DNA from: Ignavibacteriales bacterium
GTDB lineage: Bacteria; Bacteroidota; Ignavibacteria; UBA10030
Length of the DNA: 45,382 nt
Direction: 5' to 3'
Assembly: GCA_026390585.1 (NCBI GenBank)
Contig: JAPLFP010000212.1
Location: 1 to 45,382, forward strand
In this document: positions 7,658 to 27,692 of the stretch, piece after piece
How positions within the stretch are numbered: the first letter of the stretch is position 1
Layout: the number at the start of each line of letters is the position of its first letter
Notes under the pieces: generated by a model
The model's input: the letters and a program-made list of their open reading frames with translations, nothing else
What the model was told of the DNA's origin: nothing
Databases searched by the model: none
Translations under genes and position numbers: made by a program

Positions 7658-7694
7658 ACTGGATGCCTCGACCCGAAGCCAACAAGGAGTGATC

Positions 7695-10281: not shown

Positions 10282-11379
10282 CTATTCCACAGGTGACGAA
10301 ACAGAACCATCGCGGTGTAGGTAGCCGAACCATTCTCCATGTTGCGGATCCGGAAAATGGGTGAATGACCAAGCATGCACCCGCTCGTACCATTGCTCGT
10401 AAAGAGAATCGCCGGTCAGGTGATGAGCGAGGAGAAGCGCATAGAGAGCCTCGGTATGCGGCCACCAGAGCTTCATGTCCCATTCGAGTTGTTCCGTCGG
10501 CCTTCCCTCCACGTCGACGAAGTACAAAATGCCGCCGAATTCTTTGTCCCATCCCAGCTCGAGTGACCAGTTGAGCACGTCCAGAGCGCTGCGGAGAAGC
10601 GACTGATCATTCCTGTAACGGGCTTCATGCATCATGAACCAGCTCGTCTCAATGGCATGCCCCGGATTGATGCACCGCCCTTCGGGGGAGTCCAACCTTT
10701 CACCCTTTGGCCCGACGATCTCGAACAATGCCTTCTGCTCTGGTTTCATGAAGTGATGGAGCACTTCGTACAGCGATTGATCAACGACTTCTTTGTACAG
10801 CGGGTCATCATCGACTTTTCGAAGTTCCTGTGTTGTCGCGAGAAGGATCATCGGCATGGCATGAGCCTTCGTCACCCTGGTTTCCGGAATCAACTTTGGT
10901 GTCAGGCGACCGGGATTCCTGTACAACTCGATGATCATTCGATACATCTCTTTGGCTTTCCGAAGAGCTTGCTGGTCGCCGCTTGCCTTTGAATACTCCG
11001 CACATGCGATTGCACCAAACGTCTCCGTAAAGAGATAGCGACTCTTGCGCAGAGGTCGGCCGTCACGCGTCACCACGAAAAACATACGTCCGTCTGCATC
11101 GAAGCCATACCTGGTCATGAACTCATATCCACTTCGCGCAGCGTCGAGCCACTCCGAACGCCGCTCAACTTCATTGTACAACTTCGAGAATGTCCACACT
11201 GCCCGACACTGGATCCACATCGCCTTGTCGGTGTTGTAGACCGAACCGTCACGGTCGAGACAATTGAGGAAGCCACCATACTGCGGGTCAGGTGCATGCT
11301 TCAACCAGAAGGGGATTACGTCCTCCAGGAGCGAATTCCGATAGTGCTGTGTGAGCTCTTGTATTCTTTCGGTTCTCAT
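10282..11379 (-). CDS. AGE-family sugar 2-epimerase-like protein, apparently short at the C terminus
   Basis: This 365-residue protein belongs to the N-acylglucosamine 2-epimerase family, an (alpha/alpha)6 barrel that epimerises sugars such as N-acetylglucosamine, cellobiose or mannose at C2. Family features are visible: FWLKHAPDPQYGGFLNCLDRDG near the N terminus, GHAIETSWFMMHEA around residue 240, WPHTEALYALL, and FPDPQHGEWFGYLHRDGSV at the end. Family members normally continue about 25-30 residues with a KG..FKG.FH.PR-type tail that carries a conserved histidine. Here the frame stops after SSPVE, and another frame just beyond reads HCIPRTLI, so the tail may have been lost by indels. It is cytoplasmic and last in the minus-strand cluster, 46 nt after the previous gene. 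Confidence 0.88.
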   Translation of the reverse strand: MRTERIQELTQHYRNSLLEDVIPFWLKHAPDPQYGGFLNCLDRDGSVYNTDKAMWIQCRAVWTFSKLYNEVERRSEWLDAARSGYEFMTRYGFDADGRMFFVVTRDGRPLRKSRYLFTETFGAIACAEYSKASGDQQALRKAKEMYRMIIELYRNPGRLTPKLIPETRVTKAHAMPMILLATTQELRKVDDDPLYKEVVDQSLYEVLHHFMKPEQKALFEIVGPKGERLDSPEGRCINPGHAIETSWFMMHEARYRNDQSLLRSALDVLNWSLELGWDKEFGGILYFVDVEGRPTEQLEWDMKLWWPHTEALYALLLAHHLTGDSLYEQWYERVHAWSFTHFPDPQHGEWFGYLHRDGSVSSPVE

Positions 11380-11425
11380 TGAACTCTGTTGTGGTCAATC
11401 GCAGTGATATGGAAGCGACATTTGA

Positions 11426-13933
11426 CTAAGCCTTTTGAATCCTGATTGTGTAGCGTGATGCGGCGGGCAATGAAAAGAACCCCTGGCCGGTCGTCTGATG
11501 CCATTCTGCAAAGACCTTCCGGTTGTCGACAAACACGGCCGGAAGCTCAGGGGAGAAGAAAGCGACATCGACGAATCCTAATGGCTCAATTACTATCTCA
11601 ACAACATCGCGCCGGCGATCGGAGTTCAGCAGCTTTGCATTAGCTACTTCTGTGAAATGAAGAAGTGGCGTCTTGCTTCCGTAGAGCGCCGTTACGATGT
11701 GATCGCCCGGTGTCTGGTGATGGATCGGTATCTTCGTGCTCCCTTCGATGATCGTGTCGTTGACGACAAGACTCTCGAAGTGCGGTCCACCGTAAATGCT
11801 TTCGAAAGACCAAGATGACCCTCGCCACCGAATGTTTTCCAACCGCGCTGCCGGGACGGGAAGAGAAAGAGGAAGATGCGTGATGCCGCCAGGATCAAAC
11901 TCAAATCCCACGATGGATTCGCGAATACCACGCAACCACGACGTGACGCAATTGAGGTTTGACGCACTCCCGTGGCGCTCCCATGCGCGGCTATCATTTT
12001 CCCGGAATCCCTTCAGAGTGAGAAATTCAGGACAATAACCCAACCTGGACAAAGCCTCTTCGGCGCGTCCCAACCATCGCATAATGGGACCTGCGTTGCC
12101 AGCCCTTCGAAACAATTTGAGTGCGTACAAATCCCAATGCGGATACCACGAATCGAGAACGTCTTCTCCTGATGGCCCCGTCTCGGTCAACGGTATGACT
12201 CTCATCCCGGCGTCGGTGACCAATTCGCGGGCAATGAATGCAGCGGCTTCCTGGAGATGGGGTCTGATGAGCGGCAAACCCAATGACGATTGCAGGAACA
12301 GTAATGCAAAAAGAGGGTGGAAGCGACTCCGAGTGTTTGCATCTGAATTGATCGAGTCGACGAAAAATCCTGCTTCCTTATCCCAATAATTTGCGCTGAA
12401 GTTCTGTGCAATCATCGCGGCCGCAGCGCTGGTGCGTTCTTCGAGCTTGCCGTCACCGATCTGTCGTGCAATGTTTTCGAGAATCCGGCAGAGAGCATAC
12501 CAGCTTCCGACCTCCATGCAAACGGCGCTCTCTTCGCCTCTGCCGAAAGCAGATAACAGGTCGGGGTAGAAACCCTCTCCCTTCACCAGACCTTCTCTCA
12601 GTATCTGCTGTTCGGAGTCTTCGAACCGCGCAATGAACGATGGAAGTGACTGTTTGAGCAGATCGTCATCGTTGGTCTCGAGGAAAGCTTCGTAGACAAG
12701 AGCAGCCTGGAGAAACTCAATGCCGCCTGGTGATGGAGTATCGAGCGGGAGTAGAGCTCGAGTCCATCGGGCCGGGATTCGCCCGGCCTCATCTCGATGT
12801 TGCTCGATGAAACGCACGGTCCTCAAAACGTTTGAGTGATCTCCCCACCGCAGTGCCTCCTGCATGGTCACAAGTGCATCCCATGCCCAGATCCAGTAAT
12901 AGCGCCCTGGGCATGCTCGGGGAATTCCACAATCACGAACAATGCATGACTCAACGAGTCCGGGAACAGTTGTGGCGAACTCTTCAAGGTGTGGAAACCC
13001 CGGCAGTGCGAGTCTGGACAGAGCCGGTCGCTCAGGTGACGCCTCACTCTCTGCAACTGGGGCTTCAGCTTGGTCCGAGCAACGGATGGTGAATTGCGTT
13101 GCTCTGCCCGGCTGCATGGTCTGCTCAAAGATCCATGCTTCCGCCGTTTCGCGGAGAGAGCAACCAACACCTCCAAATGTAATGACCGCTCCCGCATCGT
13201 AGAGCGCGAGGTCAGTATTTTGAAATTCGGGACGCAGATCGTCACGCGTGGCAAGACCTGAGAGCTTTGAAGTGTTGAAAATCTTCTTCCGGACAGGCTC
13301 CGGGATAAGAAAGTCCCCCGCGTACGGTCCAGTCTGATCAAGCCATTTCTGGAGCATGATGCGGTCCCGAAAACCCGTTACCACCTTTCCACCTACGGAC
13401 CAAAGTGAACTCCAGGTTCTCTCCCCGTGGACTGCGGTGAACGTGCTTTGCTTATCCAATCGCATGCACAGCGTTGGGGTTACCTCAGTCGACGACGAAC
13501 ACCGAACCACCAGCGTTCGGCCTTTGGCGGCGATGACAAGCGAACAGATCCCATCCGGCAGAATCGTTTCCGCTTCAATGCGCGTCGGCCGCCAATCGAC
13601 ATCACTGGTCTGTAGCGTGTACTCTTTGTTATCAATTCGAACTGAGAAGGTTAGCACTCCGGACTCGCGAACTAGAGTCCGCGAGTTCTTGCTCACGGGT
13701 TGAAGCCCGTGATATCCCACTTCGGTGATTCCATGTTCTGCAGAGACGAACGCGTACATGCGGTCGTGCGAAATCCAGCAACCTTTATCCACGAGGTCCA
13801 CGTTCCATCGAAATCGGCCACAGCCCCATCCGGGAACATCCACGATACCTGAAAGCGCTTCCGGACTTGCAGTTCTGGCAGGCTCTCGGTAAAACAAATG
13901 CACCAAATGATTGTAGCTTTGTCGGTTTGACAT
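11426..13933 (-). CDS. Six-hairpin (alpha/alpha)6-barrel glycosidase-like protein
   Basis: This protein of about 835 residues resembles clan GH-G/GH-L type glycosidases (trehalase, GH63, rhamnosidase-like folds), but I cannot place it in a numbered family. An N-terminal beta-sandwich contains ITEVGYHGLQPVSKNSR. The barrel begins near CPGRYYWIWAWDALVTMQEAL, where the aspartate in WAWD is the likely general acid position by analogy with GH63. The C-terminal beta domain includes WRGSSWSFESIYGGPHFESL. There is no signal peptide, so it is cytoplasmic. The frame is open to a GTG at 14008; I prefer ATG 13933 because protein-like sequence begins soon after it, although no clear ribosome site is visible. 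It overlaps the upstream gene by about 241 nt in a different frame. It probably cleaves imported oligosaccharides. Confidence 0.8.
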   Translation of the reverse strand: MSNRQSYNHLVHLFYREPARTASPEALSGIVDVPGWGCGRFRWNVDLVDKGCWISHDRMYAFVSAEHGITEVGYHGLQPVSKNSRTLVRESGVLTFSVRIDNKEYTLQTSDVDWRPTRIEAETILPDGICSLVIAAKGRTLVVRCSSSTEVTPTLCMRLDKQSTFTAVHGERTWSSLWSVGGKVVTGFRDRIMLQKWLDQTGPYAGDFLIPEPVRKKIFNTSKLSGLATRDDLRPEFQNTDLALYDAGAVITFGGVGCSLRETAEAWIFEQTMQPGRATQFTIRCSDQAEAPVAESEASPERPALSRLALPGFPHLEEFATTVPGLVESCIVRDCGIPRACPGRYYWIWAWDALVTMQEALRWGDHSNVLRTVRFIEQHRDEAGRIPARWTRALLPLDTPSPGGIEFLQAALVYEAFLETNDDDLLKQSLPSFIARFEDSEQQILREGLVKGEGFYPDLLSAFGRGEESAVCMEVGSWYALCRILENIARQIGDGKLEERTSAAAAMIAQNFSANYWDKEAGFFVDSINSDANTRSRFHPLFALLFLQSSLGLPLIRPHLQEAAAFIARELVTDAGMRVIPLTETGPSGEDVLDSWYPHWDLYALKLFRRAGNAGPIMRWLGRAEEALSRLGYCPEFLTLKGFRENDSRAWERHGSASNLNCVTSWLRGIRESIVGFEFDPGGITHLPLSLPVPAARLENIRWRGSSWSFESIYGGPHFESLVVNDTIIEGSTKIPIHHQTPGDHIVTALYGSKTPLLHFTEVANAKLLNSDRRRDVVEIVIEPLGFVDVAFFSPELPAVFVDNRKVFAEWHQTTGQGFFSLPAASRYTIRIQKA

Positions 13934-15843
13934 GCGATGCGGAGAAATTTGTCTCTGTCGCCGCTGTTTGGGTACGCGGGGACGAAAGCGGACAAACCAG
14001 TCTCCCACGTCACCTTCTGCGGTGAAACGGAAACGAGGACGCTCGGGCGGTTGCTTCCTGCCCCGATTTTGAAACTGAGAGCTCGTCCGTTACCGAATTG
14101 GTTGAACTCTTCATGCGAATGCAGGTTCCATTCGATCCTCGCTGATTTGGCGAGAGTTACGACATCGGCTCCGAGGATGTATCGGTCGGGTTCCACAAAG
14201 ATGCTTCGACGGAGCAGTTGCACGCCAAGATGTGGCAGATACGAGCGAGCAAGGTCGACGGTGGCAGCAAGAGTACTTCCCGCTGTTTTGATGTCGGCCA
14301 TCGGTGCATGGCAAGACGGAGGGACAAAGTCCGGCATCCAAACAGCTGAATCTCCAATTTGCCCCTTGCCATCGATCGTGACGATGTTTTGCAGTGATGT
14401 GTCGCGCCGATAAACGGGCCCTGGACCGGAAATCACTAGCGAGCCTTTCTGATACAAGAGGAATGAACCGTTGCACGGGTCGCTGTGCCCGTATCCTCCG
14501 GTGATTCCTGCTTCATAGCGGTGATTGCCAAGCGGCAGTCCGGAACGAAAAGTGAAAAGGGAATCGGATGTTCGGACGAAAATCTGCATCCCGTCTAGGA
14601 AGGCAATTGTGCCGTCACGGGTGCGAACAGGCTGGACGTGTTCAGAGAGCCAGAGGTATTCATAAACTCTTCGTCTCGCGGGAGCGTTTCGGAAATCCAC
14701 GCCATCGACAGGCAAATCGCGCAGAAAATCACCCAGCCAACGAGCCTCTCCTGATCCGGTCTGTGCAGCAATCAGGTAGTGACACCAGCTGTCGCCCCCC
14801 ACGCGGTATTGCGGGTCGCCAAAGGTCACGCCACGCAGTCCATCCGGTGAGGTCGCAGCAGCGCGAAACACTGAAGCATTGCTCATCACAGTGGTTTGAG
14901 GCCAAAGGTTGAGGCCACCACCACTCCGCAGGAGCTCCAACCACCGCAGGAGGAAACCAAATTCATAAATCCAGAGATTGATGCCATGCGGGAAGAATCC
15001 ATCTTCAGGAAGCGTGGAAAGAACAAGCTTGAGAACGCCGGCAAGATGACTTGCCCATTCGCGGGCCCGCGGATGTGTGTCCCAGAAAAGCAGGGAGAAG
15101 GCGAGCAAACCCATTCCGCAGCCGAGGTAGTGAGCCTGTGCATAGTCTTCACGCTTGTAACCAAGATGATTCCAGCAGATGTCGGCAATTTCCCAAAGGC
15201 GCTTTCGGACACGCTGTTCGTCAACTGTGCTCAGATGGTGGAAGAGCCAGTCATATCCTACGCTCAAGAGGAAGAGCGTTTCTCCTGATTGCGTGTCGAT
15301 GGCGAGCGGAGCAAAGCCGGGTTGCTCAGTCAGAACGCAGTAGTCCAGTAGACTTTTGATCCCGCGCTCGACGTTTTCTGAAGATGGTTCGATGACAGCG
15401 AGAAATGCACCGATGAGGAGCCTGTCTTCCGGCGTGAGAGATTCAGGGCCATTGGGAATTTTTGATTCCGGTGTGACAACGAGCAATAGATCCCACCTTG
15501 AAATGAATTCGCGGATCCGTTCGAGGGGCTCGCTCCGCGCACCGGCTTGATCATGCTTCAGCGCTAAGAGATCGTTCTCGTTGATCAACAGCCGTGGGTG
15601 GCTCTGCAGCTTCTCTGCCGGAATGTCGAACAGGAATGGCGCAGGCTTGAGGGGACGGACTGCGTAGAACTGAGCTTCGAATGGAACAAGCTTGGGGTCT
15701 TCTATGCTCACGATGATTTGTTCTGAATGCACGGAGCTGATTTTCGTTACCGCGCGGAGAACATGCCGATCAAGCTCATCCCCCCAGAATTGGAATTCCA
15801 GTCCAGTCTCTGTCTCGCCGGCCTTGAGGTTTGCCAAAGGCAT
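13693..15843 (-). CDS. Heparinase II/III-like protein (putative polysaccharide lyase)
   Basis: This 716-residue protein has an N-terminal beta segment, an (alpha/alpha) toroid (about 85-370, with DWLFHHLSTVDEQRVRKRL and YAQAHYLGCGMGLLAFSL) and a C-terminal beta-sandwich. The second domain opens with ITGGYGHSDPCNGSFLLYQ, the GHSDP.NGSF pattern of heparinase II/III C-terminal domains. Such lyases split uronic-acid glycosidic bonds by beta-elimination; Y and H in the toroid are the likely catalytic residues, but I cannot assign them safely. No signal peptide is present. Both ends are odd. Protein-like sequence without any start codon continues upstream of ATG 15843 to a TAA near 15970, and the last ~60 residues lie over the next gene and look unlike a domain. 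Frame errors or decay are possible. Confidence 0.8.
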   Translation of the reverse strand: MPLANLKAGETETGLEFQFWGDELDRHVLRAVTKISSVHSEQIIVSIEDPKLVPFEAQFYAVRPLKPAPFLFDIPAEKLQSHPRLLINENDLLALKHDQAGARSEPLERIREFISRWDLLLVVTPESKIPNGPESLTPEDRLLIGAFLAVIEPSSENVERGIKSLLDYCVLTEQPGFAPLAIDTQSGETLFLLSVGYDWLFHHLSTVDEQRVRKRLWEIADICWNHLGYKREDYAQAHYLGCGMGLLAFSLLFWDTHPRAREWASHLAGVLKLVLSTLPEDGFFPHGINLWIYEFGFLLRWLELLRSGGGLNLWPQTTVMSNASVFRAAATSPDGLRGVTFGDPQYRVGGDSWCHYLIAAQTGSGEARWLGDFLRDLPVDGVDFRNAPARRRVYEYLWLSEHVQPVRTRDGTIAFLDGMQIFVRTSDSLFTFRSGLPLGNHRYEAGITGGYGHSDPCNGSFLLYQKGSLVISGPGPVYRRDTSLQNIVTIDGKGQIGDSAVWMPDFVPPSCHAPMADIKTAGSTLAATVDLARSYLPHLGVQLLRRSIFVEPDRYILGADVVTLAKSARIEWNLHSHEEFNQFGNGRALSFKIGAGSNRPSVLVSVSPQKVTWETGLSAFVPAYPNSGDRDKFLRIACQTDKATIIWCICFTESLPELQVRKRFQVSWMFPDGAVADFDGTWTSWIKVAGFRTTACTRSSLQNMESPKWDITGFNP

Positions 15844-16183
15844 GGGCGGGATGCCGTGCCACCCGGGCCAGGGACCGACGCGTAAGCCCGGAGGTTGTTG
15901 CTGGAACTGGAAATTCGGGAACGTGTATGGGCGCCTTGCATCACTGTGGACTGCATAGCGACAATGTTCTTACAGTGGATATTTCGAAGAGTTGAACGAA
16001 ATGAGAACTATCGTATCTGCACCCTCAGCGGCAGAGGCTGGAGCGACATACTGAATCCCCGTGTTGCTCGCAAGCGTTAGAGACGCAGTTCCGAGCAGCG
16101 TTACGGGGTCAACAGGGGGGATATTTGAGATGGAGTCGGTTATCACGAAAAGGTGTTTTGCTGTGATCCACCATAGATCGCCG
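15844..16183 (-). other. Interrupted coding-like stretch between two cluster genes
   Basis: No complete gene is seen here, but the minus strand reads protein-like in one frame on both sides of a TAA at about 15970-15972. From 16236 to 15970 the frame gives NIPPVDPVTLLGTASLTLAS and then IQYVAPASAAEGADTIVLIS, which resembles an Ig-like beta domain. After the stop the same frame runs into the heparinase-like gene with no start codon. The first half may be a frameshifted C-terminal extension of the 16184-18247 gene, or a fragment of a lost gene. Confidence 0.4.
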
Positions 16184-18247
16184 CTACAAATGCACCGGCT
16201 CGCCCACCGGAGGGAAGAGAATTCGTTCCAATCCATCAGTCTCAGGGAGGATGACAGATTGGGCCTCGATCTTTACCTCTCCTTCATAACGATATCCAAC
16301 TCTGGAAGGAACGAGAGAAACGATCGTGCCTTGTTTCGTTTGGGTCATCGTTACCCAGCACTGTTCCGGAGCTGTGACTGGTCGAAGTTCGCCCAACGAC
16401 TTGAGCCGAGCCAACACGTCGCCAGGCTCAGAGGGGTTTTGCCCCGAGAAAGTTGGTATTGACTTGCCGTCCTCAAAATGCGTTGGAGCTTCGTAAAGAA
16501 ACAGCACCTTCTCTTTGGCTGCGTTCAGGATTCGAAGCAGCTTGCGCTCCATGATTGCAGCGTGCGGGCACACAACGAAATCGTACTTGCCCGATCCGAC
16601 ACAATACTGCTTTCCATGCCAATGACCGTTTCGCGCAACAGTGGTCGCCAGGACATCGACATGAAAATGATTATCGAGAAGCGAGAGGAGAAGCGCAAAG
16701 ATCTCTCCGGCAGCTTTGTCAGCCCGGAGGTCTGCAAGCGCATACAGTGACTCCACTGGATAGAGAACAAGAAGATTAGCTCTTGGAAGTCTGCCGTTGA
16801 TCTTGTTCAGTTCTTTCGAAAAGAAGGCATTCCACGTTGGGAACGCGGGCCACGTTGAATGTTCCGGATAGCCTGGAAGTTCGGGCGTCCCAAGGAATGT
16901 GCGCTCCTGGCCAATCGTGCCGGCGGGCCCGTACGCATGGGCCAGCCAACGTGTGCCGAAGAGAGCCATGACCTTGACGCAATGCTGCATGACCTCTTTC
17001 TGCCATCCCTGCCCGTCGTCATCGCCGACTGTCCAGAGGTTGTTGTAGGCAAAGGGGCGTTCGTTCGATTTTCCGAGCGAAGCAGCGACAACTGACATCG
17101 CGGCGAAGTTAGAGTACCAGGGAGACTTGTGGTCTCTCAGCTTGTTCACCGCGCCGAGGTCCACGAACCCACCGCTTTTGGCGCGAGCCGTCTCCCACAG
17201 ATTCAACGATCCGTGGTTCATGTCGCACATATCAGCTGACTCGAAGTGCCAGGTGTCGTGAATGCCCACGACGGTTGCGGGACCCCAAAGGCGTCGGACC
17301 TTTTTGCGCAGATCCAATTCCGCCCGAGTGATGGAATTCTGAACTGAGCAGTAATAGGCAAGACGCACGGGGATGTGAGAAGAATCTTCTGCTTCGAATG
17401 CAAGCTTCCAGAGATCATGCTCGAGCGGTGATTTCTTGCTCGCCCGATATGATCTGCGGATCGAACGAGAATAGGGGAGAGAACCATACTGGCACGTGTA
17501 GCCCGGTTCGTCCCACATGATCCCGTCTGGACAACATCCTTCGGCCTTGAGCCGGTCGAGCAACTTGCCGTAACTCTTTAGGTGCTGACGGTTGGAGAAA
17601 TCAAAATGGTTCGTCCGGACGTGGAAGAACGCGACTGTCGACCATCCGTCGTCGATTCCTTTCGGCACACGACCAAAGGCCTCGACATATCTGTCGCGTG
17701 CATTGTAAAAGAATCGTGCTCCTGATGTAATATCGACGATATCTTTCTTTCCAAGGCGCGTCTTCCCGCGCCTGAATGCATAGACTCCTGCAAGTCCGAT
17801 CGGGAAAAATTCAACGGCGACGTCGGTCAGCGTGTGGACGTGTCGGGGTGAAAGCGTGCAACGAATGGCGTATCGGCCGTGTTCCACACTCACAGTGTTC
17901 GGCACGACATCGGCTTTCGCGGCGTTTCCAAAGAGCAGGAGTTCCAGTCCAGACGAGTCATGCGCGATCTTGTGCGAAACGAACCGTGGATCCGGACCCA
18001 GCCAGCATTTCATGCCGTGTTTATGGCATAGTTCATTGATATGACGCCAGGCCTCGACGGCCATCGGGTCATCCCAGGAATACCGGCTGCAGCGGACAAC
18101 CGCCGCCACGCCGCCAAAACTTGCGTCGGCAAGATCACAGAATTGCTTCTCAAGCAGCTCACGGTTCTCAATGACCGCATCGGTGATGGACCAGACCATG
18201 ATGGGCCGGATTTCGTCGTGTTGTTTGTGCAAAGGCGTGTGCTTCAT
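16184..18247 (-). CDS. Putative TIM-barrel glycoside hydrolase of unassigned family
   Basis: This cytoplasmic protein of 687 residues has no signal peptide. The N terminus (RPIMVWSITDAVIENRELLEKQF) resembles the opening strand of GH106-like and related beta/alpha barrels that begin P..WW.W. Later segments typical of such enzymes are GIMWDEPGYTCQYGSLPYSR, with candidate acidic residues D and E, and a GATase-like part near KYDFVVCPHAAIMERKLLRIL. The fold is inferred from these landmarks and the family is not certain. Its ATG overlaps the stop of the upstream gene (ATGA at 18244-18247), so translation is coupled. It probably acts on oligosaccharides delivered by the ABC importer encoded upstream. 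The C terminus may be cut by a frameshift, since a protein-like frame follows in register. Confidence 0.7.
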   Translation of the reverse strand: MKHTPLHKQHDEIRPIMVWSITDAVIENRELLEKQFCDLADASFGGVAAVVRCSRYSWDDPMAVEAWRHINELCHKHGMKCWLGPDPRFVSHKIAHDSSGLELLLFGNAAKADVVPNTVSVEHGRYAIRCTLSPRHVHTLTDVAVEFFPIGLAGVYAFRRGKTRLGKKDIVDITSGARFFYNARDRYVEAFGRVPKGIDDGWSTVAFFHVRTNHFDFSNRQHLKSYGKLLDRLKAEGCCPDGIMWDEPGYTCQYGSLPYSRSIRRSYRASKKSPLEHDLWKLAFEAEDSSHIPVRLAYYCSVQNSITRAELDLRKKVRRLWGPATVVGIHDTWHFESADMCDMNHGSLNLWETARAKSGGFVDLGAVNKLRDHKSPWYSNFAAMSVVAASLGKSNERPFAYNNLWTVGDDDGQGWQKEVMQHCVKVMALFGTRWLAHAYGPAGTIGQERTFLGTPELPGYPEHSTWPAFPTWNAFFSKELNKINGRLPRANLLVLYPVESLYALADLRADKAAGEIFALLLSLLDNHFHVDVLATTVARNGHWHGKQYCVGSGKYDFVVCPHAAIMERKLLRILNAAKEKVLFLYEAPTHFEDGKSIPTFSGQNPSEPGDVLARLKSLGELRPVTAPEQCWVTMTQTKQGTIVSLVPSRVGYRYEGEVKIEAQSVILPETDGLERILFPPVGEPVHL

Positions 18248-19599: not shown

Positions 19600-20938
19600 G
19601 GGAGGCCTGAAGGAGTTGTTCTTTGATCGCTTTGATGAATTCCTCTCGCAGCGCACCGCGCTGTATAAGGCGTTCGAGTTCCGTACGCGCAGCTCGATTG
19701 ATATCCGGCTGTGAAGCAACCAACGCTTCAATCGTTGTCTCGCGGGCCCACAGTTTGTCGAGCAAAGGCTGCAGGTGCTCCAGGATGGAAGCGGATGTCC
19801 AGCTTGAAAACCGCACAAAGAACCGCGGATCGCCGGCTGGGTGTCTCAGACTCCGTTGCCACACTTCGCGGAATCCGCTGCCAACGAGCCGTGGATAGCG
19901 GGCTTCCCACCCAGTGACGAAATCTGCATCCCTCAGGACCGGATTAGGCTGATAGATTGATGCGCCGGCGATGATCCATTTCAATGCCTTCCATGCTGCC
20001 TGGGCATTCGCCGTTTGAGAACTGATCGACAATCCGCCGCTCTCGGAGCGAAAACACCGGACGGGGCGAGTTCCAAAGCGCGGGATCGGAGCAACGCCCC
20101 AGCGGATCGTGAGCGTTTCGAACAGCACCTGGTGGGGCACAGCCTCGACGAGCATCGCCACCTTTCCGGTTTGCAGCAGCTGCGACGCTTGCATGCCCAT
20201 CGCTTGCATCCGGCGGAGATCCGGCATCAACCGGTCATTCATCAGCGCAAGATATTGCCTGTAGACTTCAAGTGAAGGCTCAGAGAGATTCAGAAAGAGG
20301 GACCGTTGCTGCACGGGGGCGCCGTTCATCAGCTCGAATATCTCGACGAAGTGACTTGGGATGTAGAGGCCGTAGTGCTCCGGCTCGCCGCTGGCATTCC
20401 TTTCGGCCGCAATGCGCCGCGCTGCGGCGAGGAGATCGTTCCATGTCCATGAGGTGTCAGGATATCGAAGGCCGGCTTTATTGAACAAATCTTTGTTGTA
20501 GTACACTCCTGCGGTGAAATTCCAGTTGCCGACGCTGTAGAGTCCGCCGTCAGCGGAGAAGCCCTGAGAGTACACATCGGGCCAGAGACGGCCCGTGAAT
20601 GGATCCCCGGCACTGAGAGAGCGCATGTCGAGCAGTCGGCCTTCTGCCGCCAGCCTGTCCCGCAGGACATTGTTCGTGTAGAAGATGTCCGGCGGTTGCT
20701 CGGCAGCGATCATCGCATACAGTTTCTCCTGCCCGGTGAACGGCTGCAGGTTGATCTCAACGCCCGTTGAGTCAGCAAAGGAAGGGAGCTCCTCCTGAAG
20801 ATGCTTGATCTCGACAGCATTTGCAGAACAGTTGTAGGAAATGCGTGCCTTGCCGGTGTTGGATTGCTCTTTCGTTCCGCACGAGGAAACGATGAGGGGG
20901 GCGAACAGAAGAAATGCGATCGACCGTTTCGAAATCAC
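19583..20938 (-). CDS. ABC sugar transporter solute-binding lipoprotein
   Basis: This 451-residue lipoprotein is the extracytoplasmic binding protein of a carbohydrate importer (family 1 solute-binding protein). The start is GTG 20938: GGGAGG lies 6 nt upstream, and the GTGA overlaps the stop of the preceding permease. The signal peptide ISKRSIAFLLFAPLIVSSC ends in a lipobox cysteine. Typical features are KLYAMIAAEQPPDIFYTNN, the stretch GLYSVGNWNFTAGVYYNKDL followed by TWNDLLAAARRIA, and the late GGLSISSQTANAQAAWKALK. It would bind oligosaccharides and deliver them to the two permeases. No ATPase gene is present in the cluster, so the importer probably borrows a shared MsmK/UgpC-type ATPase encoded elsewhere. 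Confidence 0.93.
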   Translation of the reverse strand: MISKRSIAFLLFAPLIVSSCGTKEQSNTGKARISYNCSANAVEIKHLQEELPSFADSTGVEINLQPFTGQEKLYAMIAAEQPPDIFYTNNVLRDRLAAEGRLLDMRSLSAGDPFTGRLWPDVYSQGFSADGGLYSVGNWNFTAGVYYNKDLFNKAGLRYPDTSWTWNDLLAAARRIAAERNASGEPEHYGLYIPSHFVEIFELMNGAPVQQRSLFLNLSEPSLEVYRQYLALMNDRLMPDLRRMQAMGMQASQLLQTGKVAMLVEAVPHQVLFETLTIRWGVAPIPRFGTRPVRCFRSESGGLSISSQTANAQAAWKALKWIIAGASIYQPNPVLRDADFVTGWEARYPRLVGSGFREVWQRSLRHPAGDPRFFVRFSSWTSASILEHLQPLLDKLWARETTIEALVASQPDINRAARTELERLIQRGALREEFIKAIKEQLLQASHEPQR

Positions 20939-21807
20939 CGTAAACCTCCCATGGCAATGCCTTTGACAAGATACTTCTGCGCGAGCGTGAACAACACAAT
21001 ATTTGGCAGCATGACCATGCATGCCGCCGCCATCAACAGGTGCCACTGGGTCATACCGGTGCCGACGATCTGCGACTTCAGCATGTTCAGTCCCAGTGTT
21101 AGCGTGGCATGCTCGGGGGAATTGATGTAGATCAATGGAGTGAAGAAATCGTTCCATGTACCGATGAACGTGAACAGCGCAACAGTGATCAGAGCCGGAC
21201 GAGCCAGCGGCAGAATGATACTCCAATAGACTCTGAATCTTCCTGCGCCATCCAGGCGAGCCGCTTCATCGTACTCCCGAGGGATGGTGAGAAAAAACTG
21301 ACGCAACAGGAAAATGTAGAACGGTGAGCCGAAGAACGAGGGAATGATCAGCGGCCAGAGTGTGTCTACCCATCCCAATCGGGAAAACATGACGTAGAGC
21401 GGGATCATCGTGACCTGTCCCGGCAGCATCATGGTGGAAAGGCAAAGGGCAAACAGTACCGTGCGTCCGCGGAAACGAATTCGCGAGAATCCGTACGCAA
21501 CGAGGCTGCACGAAAGAACCGTCCCGAGGAGGACAAGCCCCGTGACGACGACGGTGTTCAGGAGGTACCGTCCCAAAGGAATGAGTGTGGCGACGTCGGA
21601 ATAGTTCTCCCACCTCGGCTGAGGCGGTATCCACGCAAACGGCTGAGCGAACACACCACGTACGTCTTGCAGGGAGACGGAAAGCATCCATGCCAGAGGC
21701 AGCAGAAAGCCAGCGCTGATGACCGCCAGGATGACATAGACCGCACCCGAACGAACAAGTGTGCCCAACGCAGTAGGGCTTCTGTCGTATGATTGGAATC
21801 CGTTCAC
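20935..21807 (-). CDS. Sugar ABC importer permease, MalG type
   Basis: This inner-membrane protein of 290 residues has six predicted membrane segments and the EAA coupling motif EYDEAARLDGAGRFRVYWSI followed by ILPLARP (about residues 190-215), which docks the ATPase. The N terminus VYVILAVISAGFLLPLAWML and the downstream FTFIGTWNDFFTPLIYI fit the MalG/CUT1 family. The start is GTG 21807, preceded by GAGG with a 7 nt spacer and overlapping the previous stop as GTGA. It pairs with the MalF-type permease encoded just upstream. Confidence 0.95.
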   Translation of the reverse strand: MNGFQSYDRSPTALGTLVRSGAVYVILAVISAGFLLPLAWMLSVSLQDVRGVFAQPFAWIPPQPRWENYSDVATLIPLGRYLLNTVVVTGLVLLGTVLSCSLVAYGFSRIRFRGRTVLFALCLSTMMLPGQVTMIPLYVMFSRLGWVDTLWPLIIPSFFGSPFYIFLLRQFFLTIPREYDEAARLDGAGRFRVYWSIILPLARPALITVALFTFIGTWNDFFTPLIYINSPEHATLTLGLNMLKSQIVGTGMTQWHLLMAAACMVMLPNIVLFTLAQKYLVKGIAMGGLR

Positions 21808-22718
21808 TCACCAGCCTCGTAATAGACCCGGTCCTTGCTCAGCCGTGTTTGGAGCAGGGTGAACACGAGAATGATGAAGAAAAGAATCCACGCGAGTGCA
21901 GAGGCGTATCCCATCCGGAATTCCTGGAAGGCCTTCTTGTAGAGATAGAGAACAAGAAAGAGCGTTGCGTTATTGGGCCCGCCTTCGCTTCCCGGCTGCG
22001 CAGCGCCGGTCATGACAAACGCTTGGGCAAACACCTGGAAGCTTCCGATCACCCCCATGATGGAGCTGAAGAAGATCGCCGGTGAAATCATCGGGATCGT
22101 GATGTGGAAGAATCGCCTGGCCGGGCCCGCTCCGTCGAGCGCTGCAGCTTCGTGGAGCTCCTGGGGAATTCCTTGCAGTGCGGCGAGGAATATGATCGTC
22201 GTTCCGCCGATTCCCCAAAGAGACATGATCACCAGCGAGGGCTTTGCCCACGTTTCGCTTTGCAGCCACAGCGGGCCCTGGACTCCGAGCCAGCGGAGAA
22301 ATGTATTGAGGAGACCGAATTCCGGATTGAAAATCCAGAGCCAGAGCACCGAAGCCGCGACGATGTTCATGATCGAAGGGAGAAACAGCATGGTACGGAA
22401 GAACCCCATTCCTGGGAGCCGGTTGTGCAGAAGCATTGCCAGCGCCAGCCCGGCCGCGATGCAAAGCGGGACTGAGAAGAGCACATAGAAACCTGTATTC
22501 CAGAGACTCGTAAGGAACAATGGATCTTCGGTGATGATGGACTGATAGTTCTCAAAACCCACCCAGATTGGTGACGAGAGCATCGACCAGGAGTGGAGGC
22601 TGATGACGAGCGAAGCGATCATCGGGCCGGCGGTGAAGATGAGAAAGCCGACAAGCCATGGGGCGATGAACGCGTACCCGCCGAGCGATCGTCTGAATGT
22701 CATCGAGCCGCCAATCAT
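21804..22718 (-). CDS. Sugar ABC importer permease, MalF type
   Basis: This 304-residue inner-membrane protein has six predicted membrane segments. It opens AFIAPWLVGFLIFTAGPMI, the classical CUT1 MalF-family N terminus. The coupling motif is ELHEAAALDGAGPARRFFHI followed by TIPMISP. The C-terminal part MGYASALAWILFFIILVFTL is also family-typical. ATG 22718 overlaps the stop of the upstream gene as ATGA, so translation is coupled. Together with the MalG-type permease it forms the membrane channel for oligosaccharide uptake. Confidence 0.95.
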   Translation of the reverse strand: MIGGSMTFRRSLGGYAFIAPWLVGFLIFTAGPMIASLVISLHSWSMLSSPIWVGFENYQSIITEDPLFLTSLWNTGFYVLFSVPLCIAAGLALAMLLHNRLPGMGFFRTMLFLPSIMNIVAASVLWLWIFNPEFGLLNTFLRWLGVQGPLWLQSETWAKPSLVIMSLWGIGGTTIIFLAALQGIPQELHEAAALDGAGPARRFFHITIPMISPAIFFSSIMGVIGSFQVFAQAFVMTGAAQPGSEGGPNNATLFLVLYLYKKAFQEFRMGYASALAWILFFIILVFTLLQTRLSKDRVYYEAGE

Positions 22719-24640
22719 CGTTTCAGCCCTTCACTTCCGTAGAGTGTTTGAGGACAGAAAGGACCCTGCGACACTCCGGCCGCTGAGACATTCATGTCAG
22801 TGATTTCCTCTTCCATCCCACACCATTTACGTGAGAGGATATGTTCGCGGAATGGGTCGTAAAGAAACTCCATCATGGCGTCTCTACTTCGGGCGACGAT
22901 TCGCCGAGTGTGTGCCTCAACACTCGCCTCCACGTTGATGGTGCGTGCATGTTTCAGAAACTCCGCCCAATCACCCAACTGATCCTCTGTCCACACCTCC
23001 AGGAAGAATGCCGAACTCCAGTTGTTGACCTCCTCTCGCGTAAAATCTTTTGCAGGGCCGATATAATTGTATGTCGAAATGAGAAAGAAGTCCTTCTCGA
23101 TTGAAAGATGGAGCGGCGAAGTCCCGGCCGCTGGAACAGGTTCGAGTGGTATGAGCAGGATGAAGGTTCGGCCGTCGCGGATGCAAATGCGCGAACCAGT
23201 TCGCAATTGAACCGGGAAAATCTTGACCGCTCTTCCATCGACTGCGATGACATCGAAAGGTGCAGCGTAGGAGAATATGAAGTCCGTTCTGAAGCTCTCG
23301 ATTCCCTTGTGTCCGGCTCGTTTTGGCGAGTATGAGACGATCAGCCGGTTCTCATGCTGATATGTTGCGCATCGTCCTTCTTCCGAAAGATAGCTGGCAT
23401 CCACATGCGACGAGGTTGTGTGGCAGAAATTCGGAACGCCTGGAAGGGCTCCGTTGTACACTCCCCGAGTGAAAACGGAGCGGAAGTCAGTAATGGACTT
23501 AATTTCATCGGAACGGCGGATGCGAAGCATGACAGAGTCGGCATGTCCAGCATTGACATATGGTTTGGCTGCGGAGCCAAGTGCATATTCGTGTGTCATG
23601 AATGTCGTCAGATCAGTCCAGCCGCCCGGATAGACTTCTTCGTCGAACGCGAAAGGACGCTCATCGCTATTGGGATTGCCGGCAGCGTCCGGGGGCGGAT
23701 CCCTCCGGCTGTTTTCGTGGTAGCTTTCTCCGTAGGTCGTCATCCTGAATGAAAAGGGGAAAGGTTTCTCCCATGCGATCGCGGCGGCACGCTCGGGGAA
23801 ATGGTATGGCGTGACGGCAGTGAGCGCATTCTGGAGCAGGTCCGAAGGGTGATCAAATCGAACCGACAGTGAGGGATCAAGGAATATCTCCCTGCCTGAA
23901 GCGGCGAGGAGTGCACAATGAAGAACAGAATACCCGCCGAAGGAATCTTCAAGGTACGACCGCGAATGCGGTCCGGCGAACTGGCCGCTCGGAGCGTGAT
24001 AATGCATGGAGACGTTGATCCAGAGCGCTTCTTCGAGAAAACGTGCGAGTGACCTGGCTTCAGGATTCTGCGCGTACTCAGCGATCAAAGCGAGGAATGT
24101 AAGATCCAGCGCGGTGTAGGTCAGGCTGTTGTATTCGGACATCTCCGTCTGACGGAGCCTGCTCGACCGATGATCGCCGATTCGTTGTTGGAATCTCCGG
24201 AGGCGCCGCAAGCCTAAATCGATCGCCCATGACTCGGCGTGCAATTCGCCCCCAAGAATGAGCGTGCAGTACGCCCCCAGCGGATGGTTGACATTCCCGT
24301 CTTTCCATTCTGTTCCCGCAGCGTTGACAAGCTCAGAGCGGATTGCAGACCGAAGGGCGTCTCTCGTTGTTTCGTCAAGGCGATCGGGAACGCCGTGAAG
24401 GAGAGAAATCATAGAGGCGGGTGTATGCGTACCGTCGCTGCTCGTGAGCGATTGAAGGAGCTTGTTGCCGCGGTTCTTTCTTTCGGTGGAAAGATCGAAG
24501 AGAAGGCTCGTTGCATACCAGCACGTGTCTCGAACGATCAGACAGAGTCCGGTCTTTGGGTCAAAATGCCTGTCGCCGGCTTCGTGCGCAAGTTGAAGAA
24601 GCCGGAGACGTTGATCGGAGATCGGATTGAGTGCGGTCAT
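22715..24640 (-). CDS. Unknown cytoplasmic alpha/alpha-toroid plus beta-sandwich protein, lyase-like
   Basis: This 641-residue protein has no signal peptide and no family that I can name with confidence. The first ~300 residues are helical and contain DTCWYATSLLFDL, EWKDGNVNHPLGAYCTLILG and QFAGPHSRSYLEDSFGGYSV, resembling alpha/alpha-toroid carbohydrate-active proteins such as heparinase-like lyases. The rest is beta-rich (VYNGALPGVPNFCHTTSSHV, TYQHENRLIVSYSPKRAG), as expected of a lyase C-terminal sandwich. GPHSRSY and the H/Y-rich FCHTTSSHVDASYL are candidate active-site regions. It sits between the oxidoreductase gene and the importer permeases and shares an ATGA overlap with the MalF gene, so it very likely acts on the imported sugar. 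A lyase or hydrolase role is inferred. Confidence 0.75.
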   Translation of the reverse strand: MTALNPISDQRLRLLQLAHEAGDRHFDPKTGLCLIVRDTCWYATSLLFDLSTERKNRGNKLLQSLTSSDGTHTPASMISLLHGVPDRLDETTRDALRSAIRSELVNAAGTEWKDGNVNHPLGAYCTLILGGELHAESWAIDLGLRRLRRFQQRIGDHRSSRLRQTEMSEYNSLTYTALDLTFLALIAEYAQNPEARSLARFLEEALWINVSMHYHAPSGQFAGPHSRSYLEDSFGGYSVLHCALLAASGREIFLDPSLSVRFDHPSDLLQNALTAVTPYHFPERAAAIAWEKPFPFSFRMTTYGESYHENSRRDPPPDAAGNPNSDERPFAFDEEVYPGGWTDLTTFMTHEYALGSAAKPYVNAGHADSVMLRIRRSDEIKSITDFRSVFTRGVYNGALPGVPNFCHTTSSHVDASYLSEEGRCATYQHENRLIVSYSPKRAGHKGIESFRTDFIFSYAAPFDVIAVDGRAVKIFPVQLRTGSRICIRDGRTFILLIPLEPVPAAGTSPLHLSIEKDFFLISTYNYIGPAKDFTREEVNNWSSAFFLEVWTEDQLGDWAEFLKHARTINVEASVEAHTRRIVARSRDAMMEFLYDPFREHILSRKWCGMEEEITDMNVSAAGVSQGPFCPQTLYGSEGLKR

Positions 24641-24661
24641 GTTTCTGTGTGCCTCTCCGGA

Positions 24662-25639: not shown

Positions 25640-26136
25640 GCAAAATCAGAGTGATAGTGCCTGAAGATGTTGGGGGCCGGAAACTCGAAGCTTGGGCAAA
25701 ATAGCCCTGATTCATTACGAATGCAAGGGTGATGGGCAATTGTTCCTGGTGGGCAGGGGAGAAACCGGAATTGCTGAGTTGCCTGGAGATTTCGCGTTGT
25801 TTGCGTCTCCCGCTTCTGGGATTCCGCTCATAGGCGGGATTCAAAAAGCGGAACCGCTGACTTGTACCGGGATCGATTTCCAATGTCTGATAGATGATTG
25901 GGTCGAGGGCTTTTCAAATCATAGATCGAACATCGTAAATCAGAAATTATCATGCGCTTTTATGTGACCTTTTTTCTATCGGGGGGATGTTCAAGAAAGA
26001 CTCCGGAGTCCCGTGCGAAAATATTTGCAATCGATGCGATTTAGTTGTTGTTTTCAGACCAACGCTCTACAGCAACTCAGAAAAAGCCCTCTTCAAGCAT
26101 TCGGGGGGATCATCATGCCTCTTGCTGAGTGAACCG
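25640..26136. promoter_or_regulatory. Divergent intergenic region driving the two arms of the locus
   Basis: The oxidoreductase operon reads left and the alpha-galactosidase-like gene reads right from here, so both promoters should lie within these ~500 bp. I cannot fix a -35/-10 pair. A 25850-25950 AT-rich stretch contains ATAGATCGAACATCGTAAAT, a style of sequence often dispersed in intergenic DNA of this group. Minus-strand 25883-25640 stays open and reads protein-like (NPAYERNPRSGRRKQREISR), but it has no gene features and may be a repeat remnant. Confidence 0.5.
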
Positions 26137-26745
26137 ATGAATCGCATTCATTTCATTCGAGCCGCAGGCGTCTCGCTTGCCTCACTCCTTATGCGCGATG
26201 TTCTTTTCGCGAACCGGCTCAAAGGATCTATCATGAATCTTCCTGATGAGGTAACTGCCATCCTGAGCGACCAGCTCGTCACGTTGACGGGCAAGGGAGG
26301 GTCCTGGACATACAAGGATCTGATCGTCGAGTTGTTGGTCCAAGGCGAAAGCATTGCTGTAGACATTGAGTCTCCCCGGTCAAGTCTCACCTCTGTGACG
26401 CTGCGTTGGAAACAAAAAGCCCGCGACAATTCGAGGATCCTGAATGACCATTGGGAACGGACGTACGGTGATGTCTTGTGGCACGTACCATCTGAACCTG
26501 AACTCCTGCCCTGGTATTTCATGGAACATGACGGACGCCGCACGATCGGCGTTGGCGCGAAAACGGGAACTGCATCCTTCTGCTTCTGGCAGGTCGGGAA
26601 GGAGCAGGTGAGCTTAACGATGGATACACGTTCTGGGGGGAACGCCGTTCAATTGTCCGGCAGAAAGCTGCGGGCTGCTGAGATTGTCACGACGAAGAGT
26701 GATTCAGGTGAGTCTCCGTTCCAGACGGCCCGAAGGTTCATGTGA
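26137..26745 (+). CDS. Alpha-galactosidase-like protein, N-terminal half of a split gene
   Basis: These 202 residues form the N-terminal beta-sandwich of a clan GH-D (GH27/36-like) enzyme, with the export-like start MNRIHFIRAAGVSLASLLMR. ATG 26137 was chosen because the signal-like sequence begins there; the frame is open from 25987. The end, GESPFQTARRFM, matches the place where relatives continue into a segment with an NDWYYAYG-like motif and then the catalytic barrel. Here TGA comes instead, and the catalytic part starts at once in another frame. The two pieces overlap by 4 nt. The product alone should not be catalytic. Confidence 0.75.
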   Translation: MNRIHFIRAAGVSLASLLMRDVLFANRLKGSIMNLPDEVTAILSDQLVTLTGKGGSWTYKDLIVELLVQGESIAVDIESPRSSLTSVTLRWKQKARDNSRILNDHWERTYGDVLWHVPSEPELLPWYFMEHDGRRTIGVGAKTGTASFCFWQVGKEQVSLTMDTRSGGNAVQLSGRKLRAAEIVTTKSDSGESPFQTARRFM

Positions 26746-27692
26746 TGGCGCCGATGGCGGAGGGGTTGAGCAACCGACCGTTCTCGGTCATTGATGCTGG
26801 TTGGTTTGTGACGTCACCCTTTCTGCCAAATGATTCCTCCTGGGGAGATCGATTGGACCTCCCCAACGCAAAGTTTGGAGACATGAGCAGGGTTGCCGAG
26901 CGCATCAGAAAAGCCGGAATGCGTCCCGGCATCTGGACGCGCCCACTCTGTGGAAGCCACAACGATCCTTACTCCTTGATGCTGCCCCTGGTGAAGGGGA
27001 GAGATGCTAAATGTCCCGTGCTGGATCCTACGATCCCTGAAAATCTGGAACGGATTTCGAAACTCTTCAGAGTCTACAAGAACTGGAGCTACGACCTCGT
27101 AAAATTCGATTACACGACGTTTGATATTTTTGGGAAATGGGGCTTTGAAATGTTGCGGGATGGCGCCATCACCAGTTCGGGTTGGAGAATGCACGACAAT
27201 TCGAAAACGAACGCAGAAGTTATTCTCAACCTTTACAGAGCGATCCGGAAAGCGGCCGGGGATATGTATGTCTTAGCCTGCAATACCATCAGTCATCTCT
27301 CGGCAGGGCTCTTTGAGTTGAATCGCATCGGTGATGACACATCAGGGAATGAATGGGCGAGAACACACAAGATGGGTGTAAACACGCTGGCATTCAGAGG
27401 GATGCATCACGGAATATTGTATGCCGCCGATCCCGACTGTGTGGGCGTGACCAACAAAGTGGTCTGGGACAAAAACAAACAATGGATGCAGCTGGTGGCG
27501 AGTAGTGGTACGCCGCTCTTTATCTCAGCTCAACCTGAAGCGACGGGATCAGCACAAAAGGCGATGATAAAGAAATGCTTTGCGTTGGCCTCTCAGGATT
27601 TGCCTCTTGGAGAACCGCTGGACTGGATGGAAAGTCCTTTCCCGAAGAGATGGAAGTTGATGGGGGAGGAAGTTAAATTTGAGTGGGATTGA
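26742..27692 (+). CDS. Alpha-galactosidase-like catalytic domain, C-terminal half of a split gene
   Basis: This 316-residue frame encodes a clan GH-D TIM barrel. FSVIDAGWF, GMRPGIWTRPLC and LVKFDYTTFDIFGKWG give the nucleophile aspartate D123. NRIGDDTS gives the acid/base candidate D198 or D199. The C terminus EPLDWMESPFPKRW...EEVKFEWD is the expected end. The frame opens GTG ATG overlapping the stop of the N-terminal half, and no ribosome site is visible. Relatives as I remember them have about 35 further residues before MAPMAEG, including an NDWY-type substrate-binding motif, that are missing from both halves. A deletion with frameshift therefore probably inactivated the enzyme. An assembly error is the other explanation. 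Confidence 0.8.
   Translation: MMAPMAEGLSNRPFSVIDAGWFVTSPFLPNDSSWGDRLDLPNAKFGDMSRVAERIRKAGMRPGIWTRPLCGSHNDPYSLMLPLVKGRDAKCPVLDPTIPENLERISKLFRVYKNWSYDLVKFDYTTFDIFGKWGFEMLRDGAITSSGWRMHDNSKTNAEVILNLYRAIRKAAGDMYVLACNTISHLSAGLFELNRIGDDTSGNEWARTHKMGVNTLAFRGMHHGILYAADPDCVGVTNKVVWDKNKQWMQLVASSGTPLFISAQPEATGSAQKAMIKKCFALASQDLPLGEPLDWMESPFPKRWKLMGEEVKFEWD

Follow-up and report, generated by a model that had tools for sequence, protein, structure and literature searches.

A conserved import-and-degrade module, which is shared with a few uncultured relatives, was found in the genome of an Ignavibacteriales bacterium. The window, meaning the whole 45,382-base stretch analysed, is an entire contig (G000:C309) of this 4.7-Mb genome of 379 contigs. 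The module consists of ten genes on its minus strand (25639-10282), which we read as one operon and, with moderate confidence, as serving the breakdown of an oligosaccharide that contains uronic acid. A lipoprotein sugar-binding protein (SBP) and two permeases (permA and permB) would form an ATP-binding cassette (ABC) importer of what we take to be the CUT1 type, and, with an ATPase encoded elsewhere, would import the oligosaccharide. In the cytoplasm, the heparinase II/III-like protein hepar and the protein P641 would cut beside uronic acids by beta-elimination. The predicted TIM-barrel protein TIM687 and the six-hairpin glycosidase-like protein sixhp would take off other sugars, and the oxidoreductase GFO and the epimerase-family protein AGE, plus a glycoside hydrolase family 4 (GH4) enzyme in some relatives, would process the products. 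The tenth gene encodes a protein with a putative carbohydrate-binding module at its end (the CBM-ended protein). As a guess, a substrate of uronate plus galactose, rhamnose or hexosamine would fit these enzymes.

This reading is supported by the importer parts, the evidence on the ATPase, the heparinase/polysaccharide lyase family 15 (PL15) sequence of hepar and the lyase-like fold of P641. Further support comes from the KduI/GH88 context of a distant P641 relative (G272), six GH88-family matches in the window's genome and the recurrence of the module.

Gene order and junctions

The gene set and its order were obtained directly, and the order and open frames match those of a sequence-only reading of this DNA, which had proposed a single operon with overlaps of 4-17 nt. 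Both proposals were borne out at the junctions. P641/permA, permA/permB and permB/SBP each overlap by 4 nt, SBP and the CBM-ended gene by 17 nt (19583-19599), and the CBM-ended gene and TIM687 by 4 nt. GFO and P641 are separated by 21 nt, and sixhp and AGE by 46 nt. A scan of the window gave neither a tRNA nor any Rfam family at gathering score.

Ratios of nonsynonymous to synonymous substitution rates (dN/dS) were calculated pairwise among the window's genome (G000), G001 and G002 for GFO, P641, permA, permB, CBM-ended, TIM687 and hepar. For sixhp, AGE and the first half of GHab, a divergent gene beside the operon, the comparison was with G002 only. SBP was left out of this set, and 78 codons of the CBM-ended gene were unreadable in G001. 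The overall range was 0.08-0.24. Since relatives have the same order and the ratios lie in this range, the gene cluster is more than chance. In G001 (L021 6713-9784), the SBP and CBM-ended genes share one open frame of 1023 codons.

Recurrence in relatives

The recurrence of the gene set was observed directly in two surveys. A TIM687 profile scan of 84,980 species genomes gave 49 pattern matches, from which 13 loci were confirmed; this is a lower bound because the scan detects only loci with common short conserved peptides. Other module genes adjoin TIM687 in 12 of the 13. Using tblastn, the CBM-ended gene was found at 12 loci, P641, the permA and permB pair, and SBP at 10 each, hepar and sixhp at 9 each, AGE at 3, GFO at 2 (L041 and L047) and GHab at 1. 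Contig ends cut several loci, among them L041, L044, L046, L049 and L052, and TIM687 itself is in two pieces at L050. Gene order is reshuffled in the KSB1 loci (L049, L051) and in L053, with the set still together. The loci are labelled Ignavibacteria(e) (six), Bacteroidetes/Bacteroidota (four), KSB1 (two) and simply 'bacterium' (one). All of them come from metagenome-assembled genomes, and, to judge by the isolate names, their sources include fen and soil. One locus, L042 (10001-12055 on G003:C45), holds a lone TIM687 gene, 67% identical, amid unrelated genes, which is an orphan copy or a remnant.

Co-occurrence was examined in one set of 100 genomes (the window's own included), with matches counted at E below 1e-20. 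P641, TIM687 and the CBM-ended protein were each found in 12 genomes, sixhp and hepar in 11 each, and all five together in 10. Partial sets were seen in G022 (four of the five, without sixhp), G096 (two, the module contig ending there) and G003 (TIM687 only). G007 was dropped as a candidate for a sixhp remnant because its sixhp piece runs to the contig end and is, thus, uninformative. The sequence-only reading had tied its proposal to the presence of the same gene set in relatives, and the 13 loci and 10 genomes show the set to be conserved.

P641 gave 4 matches in 395 genomes of the phylum, strong in G000 and G036 and distant in G272 (1.2e-37) and G241 (9.4e-5). Among 72,556 plasmid records, no relatives of TIM687, P641 or sixhp were found. 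The same records gave 8 hepar matches at 21-25% identity, of which 4 are labelled DUF4962 and one alginate lyase.

Importer, ATPase and location of the enzymes

The ABC importer with a lipoprotein, as earlier proposed, was recovered in full apart from its ATPase: two BPD_transp_1 permeases and an SBP_bac_1-type binding protein are present. SBP has a GTG start at 20938 and a hydrophobic leader ending LIVSSCG, and its closest solved chain in a PDB sequence search was Lmo0181 (4.8e-15). The window's operon has no ATPase gene. At L051 and L053, an ABC ATPase gene, recognised by eye from sequence, stands after TIM687 within the module. The best match to it in the window's genome lies on G000:C164 and is full length and 62% identical, compared to 41% over half the length for the next match. 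This match makes the C164 ATPase, one of 44 ABC matches in the genome, the candidate partner of the module importer.

Location was assessed with a crude hydropathy test, the maximum over the first 45 residues. It gave 1.8-3.2 for SBP (6 members) and 3.0 for the product of a neighbouring GH67 gene. The values were 0.5-1.2 for P641 (9 members), 0.5-1.8 for the CBM-ended protein (12), 0.8-1.8 for TIM687 (14), 0.0-2.0 for hepar (9) and -0.1 to 1.0 for sixhp (7); the last two were taken from relatives, as the window copies lack natural starts. These values suggest that the module enzymes are probably cytoplasmic. The sequence-only reading had oligosaccharides imported intact and degraded inside. 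Degradation inside is probable from these values, and intact oligosaccharides are indistinguishable here from short products.

Lyase-like proteins hepar and P641

The heparinase-family sequence of hepar was found directly. Hepar_II_III_C (PF07940) matched all 10 hepar members at E <= 0.01 (best 3.7e-11), although the window protein lay exactly at the cut-off of 24 bits and the one from L041 fell short of it (16.9 bits). The hepar profile was closest to the PL15 oligoalginate lyase Atu3025 (3.3e-14), so by profile hepar appears nearest PL15. It also matched a heparinase II/III-like chain (4.6e-11) and another alginate lyase (5e-8), and further matches were a PL35 chondroitinase, heparinase II and a dermatan-sulfate epimerase.

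P641, the CBM-ended protein and TIM687 belong to no family that could be named by sequence. No credible Pfam match was found in 11 P641 members (best stray 0.14; no lyase family) or in 13 CBM-ended members (best stray 0.04), and 14 TIM687 members gave no Pfam match to GH42, GH106 or GH112. The stray values for TIM687 were 0.012 for AP_endonuc_2 (3 members) and 0.27 for RsaA_NTD. The three window proteins had no NCBIfam match, and the three profiles gave PDB sequence search values of 0.77 or worse. The earlier count of at least three enzymes without a nameable family stands for these three. As judged from Pfam, NCBIfam and PDB sequences, CAZy not being among the databases searched, the three are possible new CAZy families.

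The fold of P641 was predicted with a predicted local distance difference test (pLDDT) value of 77 and a predicted template modelling (pTM) score of 0.73. The model has an alpha-toroid followed by an antiparallel beta domain, as in PL8/heparinase-type lyases. All 19 Foldseek hits with E <= 0.001 were titled polysaccharide lyases, the best being 2x03 (chondroitin AC lyase, 7.6e-7). In the VIA structure comparison, polysaccharide lyases accounted for 36 of the 50 rows, including hyaluronate lyase 1n7p (Z 11.6, root-mean-square deviation (rmsd) 5.3, 455 aligned). By predicted fold and at moderate scores, P641 thus resembles uronate polysaccharide lyases. PL8/heparinase-type lyases presumably use an Asn/His/Tyr/Arg active site. 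The Y175-R227 spacing in P641 is 52, compared to 54-55 in three PL8 proteins, and no His lies 11-12 residues upstream of Y175.

The relative in G272 is 27-29% identical to P641 (E 1.2e-37) and has a leader-like N-terminus by eye. The 20-kb stretch around it also contains SusD, KduI/IolB and GH88 genes.

TIM687 and the other enzymes

The TIM687 model had a mean pLDDT of 82.8 and a pTM of 0.87. Foldseek gave 27 hits with E <= 0.001, the best being 5mqm (BT_0986, which we take to be GH106) at 4.7e-14 with template modelling (TM) scores of 0.51/0.35. The next hits were GH42 galactosidases (TM ~0.43-0.56), lacto-N-biose phosphorylases, a GH167 enzyme, an alpha-agarase and GH164. In the VIA comparison, rhamnosidase 6q2f (Z 21.5, rmsd 6.3, 587 aligned) was followed by the GH42 chains 3tts_A (Z 20.6, rmsd 4.1, 505 aligned) and 5e9a_A (Z 20.4, rmsd 3.5, 505 aligned) and by GH5 barrels (Z ~19.6, rmsd 3.5-4.0, ~300 aligned). 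TIM687 therefore resembles, as a model, the three-domain GH42-type fold.

Strands were read from the model's DSSP assignment. An invariant Glu (WDE247) follows apparent beta-4, and apparent beta-7, AYNNLWT (400-406), has no Glu in 14 of 14 members. According to an excerpt of PMC7105311, the GH42/GH164 enzymes of clan GH-A carry their Glu nucleophile on beta-7. TIM687 is like these glycosidases in its predicted barrel, mixed-sheet domain and beta domain and in the Glu after apparent beta-4. It is unlike them in lacking the apparent beta-7 Glu and any sequence match and in having a beta-rich insert (~97-215) between apparent beta-3 and beta-4.

One explanation is that TIM687 works as a phosphorylase or with inversion and does not belong to the retaining glycosidases of clan GH-A. 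This variant is compatible with our preferred pathway, and we regard it as possible but doubtful. The Glu pattern in the 14 members and the presence of lacto-N-biose phosphorylases and rhamnosidases among the closest folds argue for it. However, the strands were numbered on a predicted model whose pLDDT falls below 50 at 440-461, the invariant D331, E336 and D363 could serve as alternative acids, and retaining GH42 and GH5 enzymes are equally near by fold.

For sixhp, Pfam MGH1-like was matched in 7 of 10 members (best 1e-8) and rhamnosid6H in 2 of 10, the window protein being below the cut-off; the PDB sequence search showed weak likeness to rhamnosidase and trehalase chains. AGE scored 408.8 bits in NCBIfam (437.8 for the full-length L022 protein) compared to 600 for N-acyl-D-glucosamine 2-epimerase. 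Weak matches to the CBM-ended protein elsewhere in the relatives' genomes cover its C-terminal part only. Also, a G049 protein with a leader-like start has, near its N-terminus, a stretch resembling the CBM-ended C-terminal end.

Damaged genes in this assembly

Four genes, hepar, sixhp, AGE and GHab, are damaged in this assembly. The start of hepar lies well upstream of 15843, and an in-frame TAA occurs at 15970-15972 where relatives carry Glu. A net 39-bp deletion at 13792-13796 removes the hepar stop codon and the likely natural start of sixhp, so that the 860-aa sixhp frame has no conserved start and is open from upstream. In G002, GHab is a single open frame of 564 codons; here, a net deletion of 112 bp at 26740-26742 breaks this one gene into plus-strand frames of 252 and 316 aa. 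Both deletion sizes come from blastn segments, as the sums of 34 missing and 5 shared bases and of 109 missing and 3 shared bases, and were the same against G001 and against G002. AGE is ~30 C-terminal residues shorter than in L022, and the stretch similar to G002 at the DNA level ends at 10293.

These lesions could mean that the operon is decaying and nonfunctional in this organism and is used by its relatives alone, and the TIM687 gene left alone in G003 would agree with such decay. We consider this unlikely. P641, both permeases, SBP, CBM-ended, TIM687 and GFO are all open, and a 379-contig metagenome-type assembly can hold errors of this kind. Any loss of function would be recent, since the dN/dS values of hepar (0.23-0.24; 0.24 for the G001-G002 pair) and sixhp (0.22) are typical of constrained genes. 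Decay and assembly error both fit the four lesions.

Nature of the substrate

Several observations weigh against an acidic oligosaccharide as the substrate, or against parts of the pathway proposed for it. The P641 fold scores are moderate: TM was only 0.25-0.39 among the 19 Foldseek hits, the best VIA match was 4ojz at Z 12.0 (rmsd 8.6, 449 aligned), and a Z under ~13 may reflect a common arrangement among helical proteins. The remaining 14 of the 50 VIA rows were hydrolases, an epimerase and others. Profile comparison by hhalign of P641 with hepar and with three PL8 proteins gave a probability of 0.2%, and hepar-PL8 and sixhp-P641 gave no signal either; the PL8 comparison is weak because its only three PL8 proteins came from 2 of 148 genomes. 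The catalytic residues given for Atu3025 in an excerpt of PMC11921355, His311 and Tyr365, fell one and three columns off the invariant His and Tyr of hepar in a hand-counted alignment. The KduI and GH88 genes of G272 lie ~9-11 kb from the P641 relative on the opposite strand, and two large neighbours of this relative, once taken for heparinase-like, had no heparinase Pfam match. GH88/105 was absent from the nine module neighbours scanned with Pfam (other neighbours were not scanned), and at L051 tblastn found no recognisable hepar or SBP within 22 kb. The hydropathy ranges of SBP and the enzymes touch in what is a crude test. The damage to four genes also counts here.

The module could instead degrade a neutral oligosaccharide, such as an alpha-galactoside or rhamnoside, with TIM687 and sixhp as the main cutters and the lyase-type folds of P641 and hepar performing another reaction (epimerase, hydrolase or phosphorylase). 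GH4 genes adjoin the module in 3 of the 13 loci: L047 and L049 (Pfam) and L043 (sequence only). The L049 protein passes the NCBIfam alpha-galactosidase cut-off of 486 bits (623.7), and the L047 protein is below it (454.6). All three contain CHSV, presumably the alpha-galactosidase motif. The weak likeness of sixhp to rhamnosidase and trehalase chains, the galactosidases, rhamnosidase and lacto-N-biose phosphorylase nearest TIM687 by fold, and the dermatan-sulfate epimerase among both the P641 fold matches and the hepar sequence matches point the same way. A neutral substrate is nevertheless improbable in our judgement, given a protein of heparinase/PL15 sequence and one of lyase-like fold in the same operon and a distant P641 relative located with KduI and GH88 genes.

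Neighbouring genes

Coordinates of the operon and of GHab are listed in Table 1. The best similarity of GHab was to an alpha-galactosidase and was weak (0.0089); it had no credible Pfam match, and it adjoins the module in the same genus only. At L069 (G007:C9, 2-8590), a 2863-codon open frame beside the sixhp piece includes a 29% match to GHab.

A GH67 alpha-glucuronidase gene and an overlapping GH9-like frame stand beside the module on the plus strand (5519-10187). Both were rejected as locus members: they are on the opposite strand, and neither had a match at any of the 13 loci (tblastn) or at L022. The end of similarity to G002 at 10293 and the hydrophobic N-terminus of GH67 also speak for exclusion. 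The sequence-only reading had used GH67 as support for a uronic-acid locus, and that support falls away.

Elsewhere in the window, a protein with a right-handed beta-helix (PF13229, 5.5e-15) is encoded at 31563-33779; its match to a GH141 insertion domain is weak (PF21231, 0.034). At L048, a ~800-aa protein without a Pfam or NCBIfam match (1-2430) accompanies a glycerate kinase on the upstream side of P641, and by eye a comparable pair is present at L032 and L034.

Table 1. Genes of the operon and the adjoining gene GHab in the window
Feature	Description	Coordinates	Strand	Basis
GFO	Gfo/Idh/MocA-type oxidoreductase, 325 aa	24662..25639	-	PF01408 1.8e-26
P641	Predicted alpha-toroid + beta-sandwich, uronate-polysaccharide-lyase-like; without sequence family	22715..24640	-	Predicted fold
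permA	ABC sugar permease	21804..22718	-	PF00528 (BPD_transp_1) 1.1e-11
permB	ABC sugar permease	20935..21807	-	PF00528 (BPD_transp_1) 8.7e-23
SBP	Lipoprotein sugar-binding protein	19583..20938	-	PF01547 (SBP_bac_1) 6.9e-23
CBM-ended	Protein of 451 aa without family	18244..19599	-	Pfam/NCBIfam/PDB sequence searches
TIM687	Predicted TIM barrel + two further domains as in GH42/GH164/GH106; without sequence family	16184..18247	-	Predicted fold
hepar	Heparinase II/III-like, nearest PL15 by profile	13792..16101	-	Hepar_II_III_C; profile search
sixhp	Six-hairpin (alpha/alpha) glycosidase-like	11426..13798	-	Profile matches
AGE	N-acylglucosamine 2-epimerase family	10282..11379	-	PF07221 1.9e-57
GHab	Divergent gene, weakly alpha-galactosidase-like	25987..27692	+	Weak sequence match

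Comparison with known systems

None of the papers listed by open-licence literature searches describes this module or enzyme set; in the excerpt of a KSB1 paper (PMC9012183), 'heparinase' is absent and 'ABC transporter' occurs once. The kind of system is known, and the enzyme set looks new. Tentatively, and with rather less confidence than the uronate reading itself, we propose that P641, TIM687 and the CBM-ended protein are each the founder of a new enzyme family, in a pathway of import and cutting that is as yet undescribed. P641 would be a lyase of PL8-like layout without the usual His. TIM687 would have the GH42 fold, lack the nucleophile of clan GH-A and attack the imported acidic oligosaccharides either by inverting hydrolysis or as a phosphorylase. 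The module thus offers a small group of linked enzymes that are uncharacterised and whose substrate class can be tested; the loci recovered here from these lineages are all metagenome-assembled. Should P641 and TIM687 behave as proposed, one operon from an intact relative could lead to new enzyme families and to a substrate.

The alginate 'pit' system of Sphingomonas A1, as described in excerpts of PMC8286568 and PMC11921355, has the AlgQ/AlgM1M2SS importer, cytoplasmic lyases and PL15 enzymes. The module shares with it binding-protein-dependent ABC uptake of a (putatively) acidic glycan and lyases predicted in the cytoplasm, hepar being nearest the PL15 enzyme Atu3025. It differs in adding P641, TIM687, CBM-ended and sixhp, in an operon without an ATPase gene and in having a putative substrate class only. 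The glycosaminoglycan importer Smon0120-0123 of Streptobacillus moniliformis, in the excerpt of PMC5430744, likewise combines a binding protein and an ABC transporter, there for uronate disaccharides, and is clustered with degradation genes. The likeness lies in the importer and its clustering with degradation genes; here, the ligand is putative and three proteins have no family.

The SusCD loci of Bacteroidota are, like the module, glycan-degradation gene clusters. Unlike them, the module has its ABC importer within the operon, and the whole genome has one SusD match, on another contig (SusC was not searched for). The contrast with SusCD drawn in the sequence-only reading holds to that extent. 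On the evidence of this module, members of this branch may rely on ABC import and intracellular cutting where Bacteroides-type bacteria would use SusCD.

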